A stretch of DNA of 64,000 nt. Origin: Spongiibacter sp. IMCC21906. GTDB lineage: Bacteria; Pseudomonadota; Gammaproteobacteria; Pseudomonadales; Spongiibacteraceae. Made by a program: the position numbers and the translations under genes. The stretch covers positions 2,433,001 through 2,497,000 of the forward strand of contig NZ_CP011477.1 in assembly GCF_001010805.1 (NCBI RefSeq), in the 5' to 3' direction. Of this stretch, positions 51,516 through 58,168 are shown piece after piece. Below the pieces are notes generated by a model. That model was given only the letters and a program-made list of their open reading frames with translations, was not told the origin of the DNA and did no database searches. Numbering within the stretch: position 1 is the stretch's first letter; each line of letters begins with the position of its first letter.

Positions 51516-52340
51516 TTAAACTTGGTTCTTACGCTGGGACCACTGTGCGACATCATTAGCCAACAAATCCAAATACGCCATTGCCCGACGACGCTCTTCG
51601 CGACTGCCGCCATCCTCTAGCTTCAAGAGTAAATCCCGCACCCAGCACAACTCTCGACTAAAGTAATGCAGCTCTTCAACAACACGTTGGTCTACCATTG
51701 CCGCCGCAGCCTTGTTTTGAACAACACGGCTATCGTCATTTCGACTATCACCACCATCTTGCCACCAGCTCTTTGCCGTATCCGTCGTTAAATCTGGCAA
51801 GCTCTGAGCCTCCGCGTTATGGCTGAGAATATCCACCTTGGCTTCCGGCGCAGCTGTTGTGGGCTTGTGATGTAAACCGCCTGTCTTCTGCTGGGACGAA
51901 GACGCAAATGAGGGGATTGAGTCGGTAGGCGTATGAACATGATAACGGGGCTGCTCTAACGCCTGTTGTAAACGACGGCTCAACTCGCTATCGACTACCG
52001 GTAACGCATCACCCCGCTGGGCGCAGGCAAACATCTCGGTCAAACTAGAAACTACAGCATCAATCAAGTTCAGCAAGGCCGGGCTCAATACAGCACGACG
52101 CCCCCGCATTTGTTGAATCACATCAGCCCCAGACAAGGACAGCTCCGCAATGGATTCCATTTCCATCACCCGGGCACCCCCATATAGGGTATGAAAACTG
52201 CGATGGATATTGTCGAGAATTCGCTGGCTATCGTAGCCGTATTGCAACTCACTTACCTGCATCACCAAGCGTTCGACAATTTCCTCAGCCTCCGCCAAGA
52301 AAATAGTCAATAAGCCATCGCCACCTTCACTGTCTAGCAT
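51516..52340 (-). CDS. Truncated CheA-like protein (P1 + P3-like, no kinase domain)
   Basis: 274 residues against ~650-750 for CheA. Residues ~8-115 are a CheA P1-type Hpt domain with the phospho-accepting His at H50 ('RSFHTLYGGA'); the CheA form is H-S-I-K-G-G, so the usual Lys is Tyr here. A Ser/Pro/Ala linker (about 130-215) follows, then 'VVEELHYFSRELCWVRDLLL' (about 217-270), which resembles the start of the P3 dimerisation helices ('VDQLINLVGELV' in CheA). The ATPase P4 and CheW-like P5 domains are absent with no remnant before ccmA. It could receive or store phosphate but cannot make it. It is the last gene of the reduced flagellar locus. Confidence 0.75.
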   Translation of the reverse strand: MLDSEGGDGLLTIFLAEAEEIVERLVMQVSELQYGYDSQRILDNIHRSFHTLYGGARVMEMESIAELSLSGADVIQQMRGRRAVLSPALLNLIDAVVSSLTEMFACAQRGDALPVVDSELSRRLQQALEQPRYHVHTPTDSIPSFASSSQQKTGGLHHKPTTAAPEAKVDILSHNAEAQSLPDLTTDTAKSWWQDGGDSRNDDSRVVQNKAAAAMVDQRVVEELHYFSRELCWVRDLLLKLEDGGSREERRRAMAYLDLLANDVAQWSQRKNQV

Positions 52341-52395
52341 CTTGACTTACATCCTCGATATTGGCGGCGTATCGCCCGCACATTCAGAATTGACC

Positions 52396-52875
52396 TTAGG
52401 GAGAAAAGCAGGCCAGCATCGCCGCGAGCTTTTTCTCTAGCATTGCGGCAGTAAAAGGCTTAAGTAAAAAACCATTAACGCCAGCCTGCGCCGCATGGCT
52501 AATATCCTCGCGATTGGCCTGGGATGCCGTCATTAAAACTGGCGTTTCCCACAAACGCTTATCCGCTCGAATTGCCCTGAGTAAATCTAAGCCGGTCATT
52601 TCCGGTAAGTCCAAATCGCAAATCAAAAAATCTACCCGTTGATTATGCAACGACGTTAAAGCACTCAGCCCTTCACTGGCTTCGGAAATATGTCGACAAC
52701 CAATATCCATCAATAAATTACGTAGCATTCGCCGCATACACGCGGTTTCATCCACCAATAAAATTCGCAATTCAGCCCGACGTAACGGTTTAACCCGTTG
52801 ATCACCGCGATCATCGCCATCCACACTGCCTTCGCCAAAAGGATCTGGGCCCATGCCATCAAAATGACGGTTCAT
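52396..52875 (-). CDS. cheY: CheY-like single-domain response regulator
   Basis: 159 residues: a ~34-residue acidic/Gly-rich N-terminal extension and a receiver domain that aligns with CheY along its length ('MRRMLRNLLMDIG', 'LLRAIRADKRLWETPVLM', 'AAQAGVNGFLLKPFTAA'). Phospho-acceptor D87 ('LICDLDLP'), acidic pocket D42/E43 and K139 are present. Against E. coli CheY as I recall it, Thr87 aligns with Ala (a Thr is one place earlier, T116) and Tyr106 with Phe, so the switch coupling may differ. Its start overlaps the fleN stop (ATGA). The partner FliM keeps the CheY-binding peptide. Confidence 0.85.
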   Translation of the reverse strand: MNRHFDGMGPDPFGEGSVDGDDRGDQRVKPLRRAELRILLVDETACMRRMLRNLLMDIGCRHISEASEGLSALTSLHNQRVDFLICDLDLPEMTGLDLLRAIRADKRLWETPVLMTASQANREDISHAAQAGVNGFLLKPFTAAMLEKKLAAMLACFSP

Positions 52876-53708
52876 ACGCGCTGGGCTTCCGCAGCAATGG
52901 ACTCTGAGCTTAAGAGCTGTTCAACAAAAAATTCCAAATGCCCCTGCGAGCGCATCGCCATGGGCCAGGCACTCACCTCTTCTGCCAAACGTTTCAGCGC
53001 CCGCGCCGCCGGGCTGCCAGGGGCTGCTGTTAATAACAATTGCTGCTTACGCACGGCATTACGTAGCGCTTCATCAAACGGAATCGTGCCAGCATATAGC
53101 AAGCCAACATCCAGAAAGCGGTCGCAAACACCTTGCAGCTTTGCAAACAGTGCTCGGCCTTCTGTCTCGCCTTTGACCATATTGGCTAAAATTCTAATTC
53201 GCCGTTTGCCGTAATCTTGGCTCAGTACTTTTATCATCGCGTAAGTATCGGTAATGGACGACGGCTCATCGCACACTACCAACAAAACATCCTGGGCCGC
53301 AGCCACAAAACTCACCACCGAATCGCCAATACCCGCCGCCGTATCAATAATCAACACATCCAGTTGCGATGCTAATTCGCTGAAAGCGCGAATAATGCCG
53401 GCATGATGCAAGCTATCCATCCGCGTTAACCGACGCGTGCCTGACGATGCCGGAATAATCTTTAGTCCAGACGGACCCTCCAGCATAATGTCCAGCAAAC
53501 TGCATTCACCATCTAATACTTGCTCAATATTTTTAGTGGCTTTTAAGCCCAGCAACACATCAACATTTGCCAAACCAAAATCCGCATCAAGCAGCGCCAC
53601 GCGTTGTCCCGCTTCGGCAAGAGCGCAGCCAAGATTAATCGACACATTGGTTTTACCTACGCCGCCTTTGCCGCCACTGACTGCAATCACTTGTACTGGC
53701 TTAACCAT
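52872..53708 (-). CDS. fleN: FleN/FlhG-type MinD-like ATPase
   Basis: 278 residues from the ATG at 53708, whose ATGGTTAA overlaps the stop of the upstream gene. Deviant Walker A 'GGKGGVGKT' at 12-20, 'LLDADFGLANVDVLLGL', 'IIDTAAGIGDSVVSFVAAAQ' and 'VVCDEPSSITDTYAMIKVL' match Pseudomonas FleN closely; the end 'GHLEFFVEQLL' is also typical. FlhG/FleN sets flagellar number and delivers FliM/FliN to the forming C-ring; in Pseudomonas it also restrains FleQ. The usual partner FlhF, which lies just upstream in flagellated relatives, is absent. Confidence 0.93.
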   Translation of the reverse strand: MVKPVQVIAVSGGKGGVGKTNVSINLGCALAEAGQRVALLDADFGLANVDVLLGLKATKNIEQVLDGECSLLDIMLEGPSGLKIIPASSGTRRLTRMDSLHHAGIIRAFSELASQLDVLIIDTAAGIGDSVVSFVAAAQDVLLVVCDEPSSITDTYAMIKVLSQDYGKRRIRILANMVKGETEGRALFAKLQGVCDRFLDVGLLYAGTIPFDEALRNAVRKQQLLLTAAPGSPAARALKRLAEEVSAWPMAMRSQGHLEFFVEQLLSSESIAAEAQRV

Positions 53709-54252
53709 GCTCGCCTCCCACTCGAGGGAAAATAACATCCCAACGTAAACCCAGCCGATACTCGCCGAGCTTTCTTGCCCCAGCCATCGCCATTATTTTT
53801 TTCAGTAGCCGTTCATCAACATCGTTCACTGTTAGCAATATCACAAAATGTCCCAACGCCACTTCCTTTAAGAATGGCTTCAGGGCGGGAAGATCTTGAG
53901 ACAGCCCCAGCAAACCGCCGAGCCAAGCACTAAACCCCAACACACACAGCGGCAAACTCCACAGCGTGGTCGTGCGTAGTGCCCCCTCGGGCAAGCTCCA
54001 CAGCGACACCAATAAAATGGCGGCCAACAGCCCCAGCACCAAGCCCCAAAATCCCCACAAAATACTTAGCCTAAGAACACTTTTAGTTTCAAAAAATGAC
54101 GCCACCGGCAAGCCTTTCTGGCTTATCGCTGCCGATGATTCCGTTACCACCGACCACTTCCAGCCGACTAAGTGACGCTGGTTCAGTAATTCTGCGACGG
54201 CTGTCACTGTCTCCAGATCATTGCAGGCATATATCAAACGCTTTGAAGCCAT
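53701..54252 (-). CDS. Unknown two-helix membrane protein in the reduced flagellar locus
   Basis: 183 residues, not recognised. Residues 1-55 look like a small alpha/beta unit ('KRLIYACNDLETVTAVAELL'); helices at about 62-84 ('GFWGLVLGLLAAILLVSLW') and 97-117 ('LWSLPLCVLGFSAWLGGLLG') are Gly-rich with GxxxG-like spacing; residues 130-180 form a second alpha/beta unit ending 'YRLGLRWDVIFP'. This architecture recalls DUF1269-type or general-stress membrane proteins, weakly. It sits exactly where fliO-fliP-fliQ-fliR-flhB-flhA-flhF would be in the ancestral cluster and overlaps fleN by 8 bases. It may be a membrane partner of the FleN/FliN complex. Confidence 0.8.
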   Translation of the reverse strand: MASKRLIYACNDLETVTAVAELLNQRHLVGWKWSVVTESSAAISQKGLPVASFFETKSVLRLSILWGFWGLVLGLLAAILLVSLWSLPEGALRTTTLWSLPLCVLGFSAWLGGLLGLSQDLPALKPFLKEVALGHFVILLTVNDVDERLLKKIMAMAGARKLGEYRLGLRWDVIFPRVGGEHG

Positions 54253-54266
54253 TTACGCGCCAGCCT

Positions 54267-54677
54267 TTATTTCAGGGACTGAAGTCGTTCAGAGGCACTG
54301 ACAACCTCCGTTAAGCGAATTGCCAATTTCTCATCTACCACGACCACCTCGCCCCTCGCAATTAAAGTCCCGTTGACCAGCACATCCAAGGCTTCCCCCG
54401 CCTGCCGGTCCAGTTCGACAACACCGCCTTGATGCAACTGCAGCAAATCCCGAATGGCCATATCCGTACCGCCCACTTCCAGGGTCAAGCGCACGGGAAT
54501 ATCCATCACCCGTTCCAAATCGGGTTCGGCAGCATTGCGGTTTTGCAGGCGCTCGTCCCCAATGCTGGTATTTGCCCGTTCTAAGTCGACACCGTCCGCT
54601 TTTGAATTCCCCGAAGCGCTTATCTCTGCTTTCAATGCGTCTCGCTGACGTCGCAAATCATTATTTTGGTCATCCAT
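54267..54677 (-). CDS. fliN: Flagellar motor switch protein FliN
   Basis: 136 residues. A charged N-terminal region (1-55) with a short amphipathic helix, then a full SpoA domain (58-128): 'MDIPVRLTLEVGGTDMAIRD', 'GGVVELDRQAGEALDVLVNG', 'GEVVVVDEKLAIRLTEV'. The length is normal for FliN. It builds the base of the C-ring with FliM. It lies 65 bp after fliM and 14 bp before the membrane-protein gene. Confidence 0.94.
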   Translation of the reverse strand: MDDQNNDLRRQRDALKAEISASGNSKADGVDLERANTSIGDERLQNRNAAEPDLERVMDIPVRLTLEVGGTDMAIRDLLQLHQGGVVELDRQAGEALDVLVNGTLIARGEVVVVDEKLAIRLTEVVSASERLQSLK

Positions 54678-54742
54678 ATTTTTCCTGCTTTACACCTTTA
54701 CCCGCGTGACGACCGACTCACCACGACAACAATCACGTTTGA

Positions 54743-55693
54743 CTACAAGGACTCGTTTAACTTGAGTGCCAGTTTGTTATTGATAATGCCTAGGCTTGCC
54801 CGATACAACGGCATGCCCGCTGCTTTTAACACGGCCTGATTCTGATGCCCCAGCTGGATCACATCACCGGCTTGCATCTGGGTCAATGTTCGCAAGCTGA
54901 TATTTTTTTCTGCCAGAGTACAGTGGGTGCTGACCCGGGTATCCATCACCGCACTGCGAATAGACCGACGCCATAACGGGTCGTCGCTAAAGGAACGGTC
55001 CAGCAAGTCGGGCCGCATCAGTGTATTGCGGACCGGTTCCAAGCAGGACATGGGAAACACCAGATGAAATTCGCCACCGGTGCCCTCACTGTCAACCACA
55101 AAGCGGCTCACCAAGACCGGGTCGGCACTGCCCGCGATAACCGCCATCACCGGATTCACCTCCCGGCTAACAACCTCACACTGTAGGTTTAACAACGGTG
55201 ACCAGGCAGCATTGAGGTCATCTATTAACAAACGGGAAAAACGCTCAATCAAACGCTGCTCAGCAACACTAAAATCCCGACCATCTACGGCCGAACCGCG
55301 GCCACTGCCCCCAAATAACATATCGAGCAAACGAAAGATCAGCCGCGCATCGGCCATGATCATCGCAGCCCCGCCCAGCCCAGCCAAACGCAGCAAACTG
55401 AGGCTACTAGGGATATAAAGACTGTGTTGATAGGCACCATAACTGCTGAACTGCAGCGACTGGGGAATAATTTCGGTGGGACGACCCAATAAGCGAGAGA
55501 GGCTGGCGCGAAACTGCTCGGCAAAGCGCTGATTTAAACGCTCCAAGCCCGGCAGAGACTCTCGCCGAATATGACGCCGACTGGCCAGGTCAAAGGGCTG
55601 GGCATCGTTTGCGGCCCCATTGGCACTGATATCCTGCGTGTCGACATTGCTAAGCAAGGCATCGATTTCTTCTTGACTGAGGATATCTTTCAT
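54743..55693 (-). CDS. fliM: Flagellar motor switch protein FliM
   Basis: 316 residues, near normal length (~325-335). The N-terminal CheY-P binding peptide is intact ('ILSQEEIDALL', residues 4-14). The middle CheC-like domain (about 40-230) keeps the FliG-contact motif as 'LFGGSGR' at 126-132, and the C-terminal SpoA domain (about 245-315, 'LRTLTQMQAGDVIQL') pairs with FliN. All three parts of a working switch protein are present. It follows the Hpt gene by 51 bp. Confidence 0.94.
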   Translation of the reverse strand: MKDILSQEEIDALLSNVDTQDISANGAANDAQPFDLASRRHIRRESLPGLERLNQRFAEQFRASLSRLLGRPTEIIPQSLQFSSYGAYQHSLYIPSSLSLLRLAGLGGAAMIMADARLIFRLLDMLFGGSGRGSAVDGRDFSVAEQRLIERFSRLLIDDLNAAWSPLLNLQCEVVSREVNPVMAVIAGSADPVLVSRFVVDSEGTGGEFHLVFPMSCLEPVRNTLMRPDLLDRSFSDDPLWRRSIRSAVMDTRVSTHCTLAEKNISLRTLTQMQAGDVIQLGHQNQAVLKAAGMPLYRASLGIINNKLALKLNESL

Positions 55694-55744
55694 TACGTAA
55701 CCTGCACCCTTTAGCTTTTGGCCTTTAATGTGATTGCTGAGCGC

Positions 55745-56098
55745 TTAATGAGTCACCTGCTTCCAACTCGCCAGCTCACGCTGATAATCGTCTAATGCCT
55801 GGCGAGCCAGGCCCAGCTCCTGCCGTGCACCATCAAAAACACCATTTCGCCCTCGTCGCTCCAGCTCCAGCAATCGCTGGGATAAGCCCACTGCACCAAC
55901 ACTGGCCGCCGCACCTTTTAAAGTGTGGGCAAGCTTTTGCAAAGTCTCAGCATTTTCGCCATCAATCGCAGCTTGCATCAAATCAAACTGCAATATCGCA
56001 TTATTGGCAAAAACCGCTAATAGCTCATCAAGGTCGTCTCCCATCACCTCTTGGAGTTCATCAAGAAAATTCCGGTCTATGCTGCTTAAACTGCTCAT
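55745..56098 (-). CDS. Stand-alone Hpt phosphotransfer protein
   Basis: 117 residues, a complete Hpt four-helix bundle with the canonical 'LAHTLKGAAASVGA' motif and phospho-accepting H58. No other domain. It fills the position between fliG and fliM where fliH-I-J-K-L would be in a full cluster. Hpt proteins relay phosphate between a hybrid kinase and receivers; here the likely receiver is the CheY-like protein of the same locus, which has lost its own CheA kinase. That link is inferred from position. Confidence 0.88.
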   Translation of the reverse strand: MSSLSSIDRNFLDELQEVMGDDLDELLAVFANNAILQFDLMQAAIDGENAETLQKLAHTLKGAAASVGAVGLSQRLLELERRGRNGVFDGARQELGLARQALDDYQRELASWKQVTH

Positions 56099-56162
56099 AT
56101 TGAATGCATCCGTTTATTCAACTGCTTTATACATACCGCTATTGCCAACGCATTGGCAGCGA

Positions 56163-57188
56163 TCAGCTTATCCCTAATTTTCGAGAATCAATAATAATCT
56201 CGCCCAAATCAGCCAATTTTCGAGCCACACCAAGGATTTCGTCCCGAGCTTCAACCGAAGCCGCTTGATAGCCCTTAACACCATGTCGCAGCTTTTGACT
56301 TAACTCACTGCGTCGGCCCCTACTTAACGCCTTTAATATGCGGCTACGACTGGCATGGGGTAAATCCATAACCGCGGTAGCCAACAAGTCCACCGCAAGA
56401 GGCTCAATGACTTTTTTCAATTCTTGACTGGGCAAGCTAAGCAACTCATTAAAGTCGAACATCATCGCTTCAATTCGGGCGGCTCGTTGGGGCTCCATAC
56501 TGCTCAGCGCCGCCAGCAAGTCGCTCTCTTGCTGCGTCGAAAGTTCTTTAAGCAAATCTGCCGCCAGTCGCTCCCCTTTCACCTGTTGCTTTAACTCAGA
56601 GCCACTGCCGTTAAGGTGACTAGACAATACTGCGTCTAACTCTTCAAGTGCCAACGACGAGATATTTTCCAGGCTCGACAAACGGTCTAACAAGTCTTGA
56701 CGCTGGCCTTCAGGTAGAGACATTAATACCTGGCTGCCCTGCTTTGGACTTAAACACGCAACCAGAACCGCCTGAATTTGCGGATGCTCGTTGCGCATAA
56801 TTTCAGCGATACTGTGTGCATCCAGCCAGCGCAATTTGGCAAGCTGACTATCAGAAGACAAGGCTGACAAGCGTTCACCCAACAAGCGGCCACGCTCACG
56901 GCCTAAAGCATCGTCGAGCATATGTCGCATATCTTCACGACTATACGAGCGAATATTAGACGCTTGAGCAGCATCGTGAATAAAGCGCTGCAACACGCGG
57001 TTGCTTGCGCCTTCACCGTAATCTTCTAAGTTCAACATGGCACTGCTCAACCGCTGCACATTTTCAGGGGGCAACTCCCTCAGCACCGCGATGGCTTGAT
57101 CACGATCCAGCGACATTAAAACCATTGCCGCCTGCTCAGTATTACTGAGACTGCTTAAATCTGCGGAGAACTTTTGGCTACGACTCAT
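56163..57188 (-). CDS. fliG: Flagellar motor switch protein FliG (torque residues changed)
   Basis: 341 residues, normal length. N-terminal domain for FliF binding (about 12-100, 'LSNTEQAAMVLMSLDRDQAI'), middle armadillo domain with the FliM-binding EHPQ motif at 134-137 ('MRNEHPQIQAVLVA'), and a C-terminal domain with MFxF as 'MFDF' (243-246). In a gapless alignment to recalled E. coli FliG the five torque-helix charges become M274 (K264), G291 (R281), Q298 (D288), K299 (D289) and Y307 (R297). The GGVK-type motif opening the C-terminal part is also changed ('QQVKGERLAA'). Structure is kept, stator contacts probably not. The ATG overlaps the fliF stop by 11 bases. Confidence 0.93.
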   Translation of the reverse strand: MSRSQKFSADLSSLSNTEQAAMVLMSLDRDQAIAVLRELPPENVQRLSSAMLNLEDYGEGASNRVLQRFIHDAAQASNIRSYSREDMRHMLDDALGRERGRLLGERLSALSSDSQLAKLRWLDAHSIAEIMRNEHPQIQAVLVACLSPKQGSQVLMSLPEGQRQDLLDRLSSLENISSLALEELDAVLSSHLNGSGSELKQQVKGERLAADLLKELSTQQESDLLAALSSMEPQRAARIEAMMFDFNELLSLPSQELKKVIEPLAVDLLATAVMDLPHASRSRILKALSRGRRSELSQKLRHGVKGYQAASVEARDEILGVARKLADLGEIIIDSRKLGIS

Positions 57189-57939
57189 CCTGCTCCATCC
57201 ATTGACTCAGTACATTGGCGATGCGACGTGGCTCGTGCTGGGATAAGGCCTGCAAGCCCTCCGAGGCCGACTCCCCATGACGGAGGGGCTTGCGACCAGT
57301 GACACCATGGGCAATCGCGCCATAAGCAAGCGGACTACGATCAAACGACCCACGATAAGCAGACTGCCAAAACATTAGCCCGAATAAACCGCTCAAAAAA
57401 ATGGCCAGCCCCACCAACACAATATCCAGATCACTAAAACTGGCATACCACAGCTGGTTCGCATTATCGAGAAAGGGCCGCGCAACCAATTGAAGCGTCG
57501 CCAGCTCTTCCTGCTCGGTCACATTAGCAGCGTTCATACCCAAGGCGGGTAACAGCAACTGCCTAATTAAACGTTGTAACTCGGGATCAATCGACTCCCT
57601 ATTGAGCAATATCACCACTTTAACGGCATGCTGATTATTGCCAATCGTAGAGTCAGACGCAGCTGACACCCCGGCGTAATGCACTAACAGCCGCATATCA
57701 TCGGGGGTAATGATTGGCCGCAGCAATGTCCGCAATTTGGTTTCTAAAACCGCTTCGCGCTGGCTTTGCAAATCGTAGGGGTTAACGTCGGTGCCAATGG
57801 CCACTGGCTTATGTTCAGCGCCAAATAGATTCGAAGAGGGAAAGACCAAGCGAACCAATACAGCCGATAAGGACAGGCACAGCACAAAAAACAGCAGTGC
57901 TGTGGTAATGCTTCCCCTGTGTGTCCTTAACTGCGGCAA
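57178..57939 (-). CDS. fliF: Minimal FliF-like MS-ring protein (RBM3 + TM2 + FliG-binding tail)
   Basis: 253 residues against ~550 in FliF. The start is TTG with GAGG 7 bases upstream; the nearest ATG (57952) is out of frame. TM1 at about 11-32; a ~135-residue periplasmic part in which 'REAVLETKLRTLLRPIITPD' and 'QLLLPALGMNAANVTEQEEL' match the two halves of the FliF RBM3 region; TM2 at about 172-191; and a cytoplasmic tail ending 'LSQHEPRRIANVLSQWMEQD', which matches the FliG-binding helix of FliF (E. coli: 'NDPRVVALVIRQWMSND'). RBM1, RBM2 and the long beta-collar insertion are missing. The frame is open with normal base use, so it reads as a reduced protein rather than debris. Confidence 0.8.
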   Translation of the reverse strand: MPQLRTHRGSITTALLFFVLCLSLSAVLVRLVFPSSNLFGAEHKPVAIGTDVNPYDLQSQREAVLETKLRTLLRPIITPDDMRLLVHYAGVSAASDSTIGNNQHAVKVVILLNRESIDPELQRLIRQLLLPALGMNAANVTEQEELATLQLVARPFLDNANQLWYASFSDLDIVLVGLAIFLSGLFGLMFWQSAYRGSFDRSPLAYGAIAHGVTGRKPLRHGESASEGLQALSQHEPRRIANVLSQWMEQDES

Positions 57940-58168
57940 CGTCCGACCTCATACGATCAAGCTGTCGATATTTTGACAAACCACCAAGAAACGGGCGCAA
58001 AAACTGTCGAAATATTGACACAAAAGCTGCTTTTATAAGCAAAAACAGCCACTTGTCGTAAAGGTAGCAGGTTTCAGGCCAGCTTTTCGCTTACTATGCA
58101 CGCGCCATAGATTAGCCAAGGGACGGTGTTACCAGCTTGCTCACCAGCGTATTTATTATTAACGGTGT

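Follow-up and report, generated by a model that had tools for sequence, protein, structure and literature searches.

The 64,000-nucleotide stretch of the Spongiibacter sp. IMCC21906 genome analysed here (positions 2,433,001 to 2,497,000 of contig NZ_CP011477.1; called the window below) carries nine minus-strand open reading frames (ORFs), all of them open, that span positions 51516-57939 and encode a flagellar switch set with its regulators: reduced forms of FliF and FliG (FliF' and FliG'), a stand-alone Hpt, FliM, FliN, a small membrane protein, FleN, a CheY-type receiver and a kinase-less CheA (CheA'). This locus is very probably the ancestral polar flagellar-chemotaxis cluster of the family Spongiibacteraceae, reduced in place to a selected, non-torque rotor-switch with its regulators, while another system does the swimming. 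We observe its gene content, its synteny, its selection, the motifs kept and lost, paired DNA boxes ahead of the operon and a FleQ homologue in the same genome, and it is from these that a role is argued. Our account as a whole, that is, reduction in place together with a checkpoint circuit of FleQ, FleN and the cytoplasmic ring (C-ring), comes close to an even call.

The sequence-only reading had listed these genes (a C-ring set, a short FliF, FleN, CheY, Hpt and a CheA without kinase), and both the ORFs and the domain searches bear that inventory out; it had also taken the set for a switch without a flagellum, and this part fails. In the same genome (3.48 Mb; G000 in our numbering, with C1 its contig, and G001-G020 and so on the relatives' genomes), a full flagellar set with its own fliF, fliG, fliM and fliN lies at G000:C1:1844853-1898683, running from fliL to fliD together with fliS/fliT-like genes, and two flagellin-domain genes are present. 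The genes of this other cluster were named by order, length and similarity, with FliM, FliN, FliF, FliG and FleN checked against NCBIfam and the stators outside the search; FliN, FliF and FliG score above their cut-offs, FliM below (148 vs 219.6 bits), and FleN matches MinD models below theirs. The absences once noted for the window stand in part: when its 239 ORFs of at least 60 amino acids were compared with 57 proteins of the flagellar region and a CheA and a CheW of G006, no export, rod, hook or filament gene and no CheW was matched (stators and CheB/CheR were outside the query set), but the genome itself has flagellar genes. Among the nine genes only FleN, FliN, FliM and FliG gave matches, and the remaining hits were of two ORFs to one TonB-receptor-like gene of the flagellar region.

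The two systems are well separated in sequence. Within this genome the two FliM are 27% identical, the two FliG 30%, and the two FliN 58% over 78 residues. The other FliM (G000:C1:1845404-1846348) is 34% identical to that of G130 and 20-29% to those of all other genomes matched; in trees it groups with G130, which belongs to another family, and the FleN and FliG of its cluster fall among ordinary ones. Its N-terminus reads LEPEELEAFM, where relatives have LDPEELEALM or LEQEEIDALM; loss of the CheY peptide from the other FliM was considered and dropped, a related peptide being kept in the relatives. The activator of this cluster is closest to FlrC. Three CheW domains, one of them within a 1891-amino-acid CheA-like protein, are found in the genome, at C1:253596-262235. 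As we take this region to be a type IV pilus system and the long protein to be ChpA, no flagellar-type CheA or CheW was seen in the genome. The family genomes fall into two groups, 12 of 21 with five CheW domains, of which one sits in a protein the size of CheA (683-715 amino acids), and nine with two or three; the window-type locus occurs in both groups.

Domain searches (Pfam and NCBIfam) assign seven of the nine genes to a family, the exceptions being FliF' and the membrane protein (Table 1). FliF' gave no family at E<=1. In a profile comparison with five FliF (hhalign), its second half aligned with 94.9% probability and E 4.5e-8; a Foldseek search of the PDB with its model, whose mean predicted local distance difference test score (pLDDT) is only 68, returned FliF S-ring/RBM3 structures as the top matches (E 3e-3, prob 1.00, none <1e-3). 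It has two hydrophobic segments, and its C-terminal end is a FliF-type FliG-binding helix. From profile comparison, fold and tail helix, the 253-amino-acid protein is a reduced FliF. FliG' scores 154.7 bits with the NCBIfam fliG model, below the 226.7 cut-off, and matches the FliF-FliG fusion 8z4d at E 4.3e-43 (phmmer). The stand-alone Hpt is, on its position, HptB-like, and matches an Hpt in four of six ordinary flagellar clusters. The membrane protein reaches no Pfam or NCBIfam cut-off; the structure nearest to its model in the PDB, weakly, is 6btm_D, ActD-like, of alternative complex III (Foldseek E 2.6e-4, TM-score 0.37), and no counterpart was found in the ordinary flagellar clusters (40-kb stretches from six other families). 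The true start of FleN may lie about 10 codons further in. In CheA' the domain search found no HATPase (P4) kinase domain, and two segments match the CheA of G524. Membership in an injectisome (non-flagellar type III secretion) was considered and rejected: SctQ scores far lower than the FliN and FliM models, and no export gene occurs among the window ORFs.

Table 1. Genes of the locus and the boxes ahead of it, with positions in the window
Feature	Position	Strand	Description
FliF'	57178..57939	-	253 amino acids, TTG start; first transmembrane (TM) segment, periplasmic RBM3-like domain, second TM segment, FliG-binding tail
FliG'	56163..57188	-	Pfam FliG_N/M/C; torque charges lost, EHPQ kept
Stand-alone Hpt, HTLKG phospho-acceptor motif	55745..56098	-	Pfam Hpt 42.7 bits
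FliM	54743..55693	-	TIGR01397 248.2 bits (cut-off 219.6); N-terminal LSQEEIDALL peptide
FliN	54267..54677	-	TIGR02480 103 bits (cut-off 84.05)
Membrane protein, 183 amino acids	53701..54252	-	Split ferredoxin-like domain round a TM hairpin; model pLDDT 86
FleN/FlhG MinD-type ATPase	52872..53738	-	E 2.7e-104 to P. aeruginosa FleN
CheY-type receiver	52396..52875	-	Pfam Response_reg; own copy with acceptor Asp and acidic pair
CheA'	51516..52340	-	Pfam: Hpt (P1) only; C-terminal helical segment like CheA P3
FleQ-like box GTCGATATTTTGAC	57964..57977	.	24 bp ahead of the FliF' start
FleQ-like box GTCGAAATATTGAC	58006..58019	.	42 bp from the first box

What has been lost from these proteins differs from what has been kept. 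The torque charges of FliG (K264, R281, D288, D289 and R297 in E. coli) are present in 0/20 FliG' at the R281, D288 and D289 positions, in 1/20 at R297, and as a basic residue in 3/20 at K264, the alignment of this stretch being uncertain; no FliG' keeps more than one of the five, and all five are found in 9/9 reference FliG. EHPQ, which we take to be the FliG-FliM contact motif, is kept in 20/20 FliG', as is the SQxE[IV]DALL peptide in 20/20 FliM. In 12 of the 20 genomes FliF' has a gene of its own; in the other eight it is fused to FliG. Three fusions retain the periplasmic domain (G004, G018 and G019), and four have a FliF stretch of 107-125 amino acids with one or two hydrophobic segments (G001, G007, G012 and G013). 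In G010 (L071:6227-7375) FliF is down to 48 amino acids fused to FliG, with no hydrophobic segment. As the membrane protein was also not found there, the G010 version of the complex may be cytosolic, to judge from its sequence. A full FliF base of the membrane-supramembrane (MS) ring, on which a C-ring would sit, is thus wanting: FliF' lacks RBM1-2, and G010 lacks even a TM segment. The FliG-binding helix remains recognisable in 20/20, including the forms that have lost the periplasmic domain or every TM segment. The His motif of the stand-alone Hpt is intact in all 18 genomes that have one.

The window-type FliM is found in 20 of the 21 family genomes, always beside the other FliM; the one miss, G020, is a 70% complete genome. 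With a FliM profile run over 390 genomes of the order, 18 family genomes score 416-547 bits and every other genome <=367. Two FliM matches also occur in six genomes outside the family (G371, G394, G458, G550, G601 and G613), so that the locus is confined to the family only as far as sampled. In 14-16 kb neighbourhoods, the order ttcA, FliF'/FliG', FliM, FliN, CheY, CheA', ccmABC is identical in 19/19 relatives, all of which encode FliG, FliM and FliN together as the window does; this common order excludes chance. The relatives' FliF' were assigned by position and tail motif since the iterative FliF profile drifted onto FliG, and the FliF' of G011 had no BLAST match. Some members are missing here and there: the membrane protein is present in 17/19 relatives (not in G010 and G019) and the stand-alone Hpt in 17/19, the Hpt match in G018 and G019 being CheA' itself; FleN is likewise in the locus of 17/19.

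The locus is under purifying selection. The ratio of nonsynonymous to synonymous substitution rates (dN/dS) was estimated for two usable pairs of moderate divergence, G016/G017 and G002/G011, and three further pairs were run. In the two usable pairs, FliG, FliM, FliN, FleN and CheY give 0.019-0.061, Hpt 0.013-0.081, the membrane protein and CheA' 0.066-0.130, and FliF' 0.21-0.34; the neighbours ttcA and ccmABC give 0.014-0.103. In G012/G013, where dS is small, the five core genes give 0.026-0.123, Hpt, CheA' and the membrane protein 0.20-0.31, and the neighbours 0.017-0.219, and in two near-saturation pairs the five core genes give 0.039-0.087 where defined. The sequence-only reading had proposed a maintained switch set that has shed its torque parts under selection rather than by decay, and had suggested looking for the same genes in relatives; on each of these points it is upheld, with frames open, dN/dS low, and neither stop codons nor relaxed selection found across the relatives.

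A decaying relic without function is therefore barely credible. One could cite for it the stepwise reduction of FliF, the phospho-sites lost in some genomes and the fast FliF', but the open frames, the shared order in 19 relatives, core dN/dS values in the range of ttcA and ccmABC, the invariant interface motifs and the conserved boxes all speak against it, and we reject decay on selection and fixation. One further observation concerns the neighbourhood: a 5.7-kb segment that lies upstream of the locus and stops within ttcA shows 97.5% identity between L069:20-5733 (G019, of another genus) and L071:1-5714 (G010), while the loci themselves differ strongly. Either DNA was exchanged recently, with the breakpoint falling in ttcA, or one of the two assemblies has a chimeric contig here.

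Reduction in place is favoured by the ccm neighbourhood, by colinearity with ordinary clusters and by the FliM tree. The window locus adjoins ccmABC and shares its gene order with the ordinary polar flagellar-chemotaxis clusters found in other families. Six of these families were compared over 40-kb stretches, and 6/6 have fliM, fleN, cheY and cheA arranged as in the window. Within the stretch, four also have fliG upstream and three fliF; ccm genes follow downstream in four, and a window-like Hpt precedes fliL/fliM, towards fliI/fliJ, in four. Window FliM is 35-38% identical to the six ordinary clusters against 27% to the genome's other FliM, and window FleN 57-60% against 48%; CheY is 46-51% identical to the ordinary clusters' CheY, and FliG (29-33% in the four clusters that have one, against 30% to the other FliG of the genome) and FliN do not discriminate. 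In the FliM tree (midpoint rooting, with long-branch warnings), the 20 window-type sequences fall inside the FliM of the order with support 93/99, just below the tool's mark of 95/80, and apart from 12 other-flagellum FliM and that of G130. Pseudomonas, Marinobacter, Vibrio and Shewanella are among the best 80 of 547 named relatives, with identities of 32-39%.

Upstream, the operon has paired boxes of the form GTCA-W6-YGAC, at a spacing of 39-52 bp, which lie ahead of the first gene or overlap its start; strict pairs occur in 16/20 genomes and a single strict box in G004 and G007. An extra box at the Hpt-FliM border occurs in 12/19 relatives and is absent from the window. The FleQ motif is given as GTCaNTAAAtTGAC in P. 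aeruginosa and GTCAaAAAAtTGAC in P. putida in the cited part of PMC8125075, and the passages used from PMC10723142 describe tandem boxes as typical of biofilm promoters repressed by FleQ and FleN, efficient binding of FleQ to DNA requiring FleN. The Spongiibacter genome has seven box sites, two of them those before the operon, and none (in the strict form) in its other flagellar cluster. A third box lies 110 bp ahead of a sigma-54 activator (C1:2688502-2689788). Among proteins of solved structure its closest relative is P. aeruginosa FleQ (E 4.2e-111), with which it has the helix-turn-helix stretch RRTTLxEK in common. FleQ homologues were sought, by following boxes, in four genomes (this one, G017, G011 and G006) and found in each; those of the latter three also have upstream boxes. 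In all but G006, the box could instead serve a neighbouring gene that is transcribed divergently.

Other box-like palindromes were seen in these genomes. One, GTCATTTTAATGAC/GTCATTAAAATGAC, stands between two divergent genes read as ppk and ppx (G000:C1:18647-18660, G014:C1:1527311-1527324 and G010:C40:9385-9398); another (G000:C1:1255578-1255591) is 192 bp ahead of a gene read as mreB, and a third (G014:C1:77783-77796) is 181 bp ahead of a gene read as fimV/hubP-like.

As to function, we tentatively propose that the locus works as a flagellar assembly-checkpoint circuit, FleQ-FleN-C-ring, retained without its flagellum. The cited portion of PMC12826062 describes FlhG/FleN as a binding partner of both FlrA/FleQ and the N-terminal end of FliM that may pass the state of C-ring assembly on to transcription; the parts kept here are those of that FleN-FliM-FleQ circuit, and the parts lost are those only a motor needs. 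The paired boxes would put the operon under the control of the kept FleQ homologue. The tail of FliF' would fold onto FliG', FliG' would recruit FliM through EHPQ and FliM would recruit FliN, and the four might build a ring or cluster. FleN and CheY would compete for the exposed FliM N-terminal peptides, and the two Hpt proteins would pass phosphate to or from CheY, so that the complex could withdraw FleN from FleQ according to phosphorylation state and so tune FleQ. Possibly, though we hold this more loosely still, the result is a stand-alone phosphorylation-gated regulator in which C-ring proteins only bind and release FleN and CheY, with no part in export or torque and, in G010, with no anchor: a checkpoint that outlived its organelle.

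Loss of the torque charges while EHPQ, the FliG-binding helix and SQxE[IV]DALL are all invariant supports this checkpoint proposal, as do the closeness of FleN to that of P. aeruginosa, the conserved box pairs and the box upstream of the FleQ homologue. The main objections to it are that G018 and G019 lack both FleN in the locus and any box, that phospho-sites are partly lost, and that no output gene is known. The CheY acceptor Asp is lost in 2/20 (G014 and G004), one acid of the acidic pair in 9/20, and the CheA' phospho-acceptor His in 1/20 (G004). Several other points weigh on the same side. Over whole genomes, enrichment of the box pattern against a reversed control is weak or absent (5+4 rows vs 1+2 in the Spongiibacter genome, 3+3 vs 1+4 in G010 and 9+8 vs 4+8 in G011), and the boxes therefore draw their weight from where they lie and how well they are conserved. 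The Pfam FleQ domain is missing from the FleQ homologues, as is the LFRS stretch of P. aeruginosa FleQ, presumably part of its cyclic di-GMP site; a search with PF06490 (the FleQ domain) gave weak matches only, <=29.3 bits, and missed the homologue. As regards the reduction in place, quick FliG and FleN trees do not confirm the descent.

Three other roles deserve to be weighed against the checkpoint circuit; the sequence-only reading had named a signalling platform, polar positioning and partitioning as candidates. Polar positioning, in which a mini C-ring would put FleN at the pole and set flagellar number or keep septa off the pole, is modelled on Campylobacter jejuni, where polar FlhG and correct division need FliF, FliG, FliM and FliN, not FliH/FliI (PMC6946799, cited part); the kept set, with FleN, matches, and the C-terminal ends of FleN look like the one that targets P. 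aeruginosa FleN to the membrane. The same passages report no stable contact between FlhG and the C-ring in C. jejuni, and the FliF-FliG of G010 has no membrane anchor. MinC, moreover, is present in 17 of 21 family genomes (absent from G010, G018, G019 and G020), so that a Min system is at hand, and two of the genomes without it, G018 and G019, also lack FleN in the locus; replacement of Min by the locus is not supported, and polar positioning is on the whole unlikely. It is rather improbable that the locus is instead a membrane signalling platform, independent of FleQ, for the type IV pilus and Pil-Chp or for another phosphorelay. The two Hpt proteins and the receiver, the presumed ChpA and the additional membrane protein of most relatives would fit, but phospho-sites are not kept in every genome, and a genetic link to pilus genes was neither seen nor searched for. 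A SpoIIE search for HsbR, presumably the partner of HptB, found two proteins of 394-395 amino acids and a weak third.

A mixed ring is likewise rather improbable; here the FliM, FliN or CheY of the locus would be built into the working flagellum's C-ring, which would thereby gain a switch that responds to CheY. It would account for a locus FliM with SQxEIDALL beside an other FliM with the divergent N-terminus, in a genome where no flagellar-type CheA or CheW was seen, and the similarity of the two FliN suits it. The two FliM and the two FliG are far less alike, however, and a FliG' without torque charges would spoil torque. Relatives' other FliM keep a related peptide, and the locus is kept also in the 12 of 21 genomes where a CheA of about 690 amino acids with CheW exists.

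Most discussion of partial flagellar sets treats them as products of decay or as retained export machines; here it is the rotor-switch half that is kept, family-wide and under purifying selection. The family offers a natural series of FliF loss down to the FliG-binding helix, together with natural FliF-FliG fusions. Since the flagellum used for swimming has its own genes elsewhere, a deletion of the locus could leave that flagellum intact, which makes a clean setting for studying roles of the C-ring and FleN beyond motility. Flagellar remnants with new uses are already known, and no described system of this kind was found in the open-licence literature; as far as we have seen, a rotor-switch kept without export or torque beside another, complete flagellum is new.

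The closest known systems are the polar C-rings with FleQ/FlrA and FleN/FlhG of Pseudomonas, Shewanella and Vibrio, which, in the parts of PMC12826062 and PMC10723142 drawn on here, share the order FliF-FliG-FliM-FliN, FleN, CheY, Hpt, CheA, the FliM peptide and FleQ-like boxes; unlike them, the locus has no export gate, rod, hook, filament, FlhF or FliA, its FliF is reduced, its FliG is without torque charges, and a complete flagellum is encoded separately. The checkpoint on MS ring, rotor and flagellar type III secretion system (FlgSR/FlrBC/FleSR) resembles it in using a FliF-FliG complex as a transcription signal, but that checkpoint needs the export core, absent here, and in V. cholerae is independent of FliM/FliN (PMC7064773, as far as the cited passages go), and no FlgS/FlrB/FleS-type kinase lies within the locus. 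In C. jejuni, FliF, FliG, FliM and FliN likewise have a use outside motility with a MinD-like ATPase, although there, by the cited part of PMC6946799, the proteins belong to a working motor, whereas the locus is a separate, reduced set. Non-flagellated Lysobacter enzymogenes also keeps a partial flagellar set for another use; as described in the portion of PMC9927559 cited, it keeps export genes, with FleQ and the flagellum absent, whereas the locus keeps the rotor-switch, with a FleQ homologue kept and a flagellum encoded elsewhere. Finally, the FliF-FliG fusions engineered for MS-ring structures in Salmonella and Vibrio join the FliF tail and FliG in one chain (PMC6079021 and PMC11481574), as do those of this family, which, unlike the engineered ones, are natural and have most of FliF missing.

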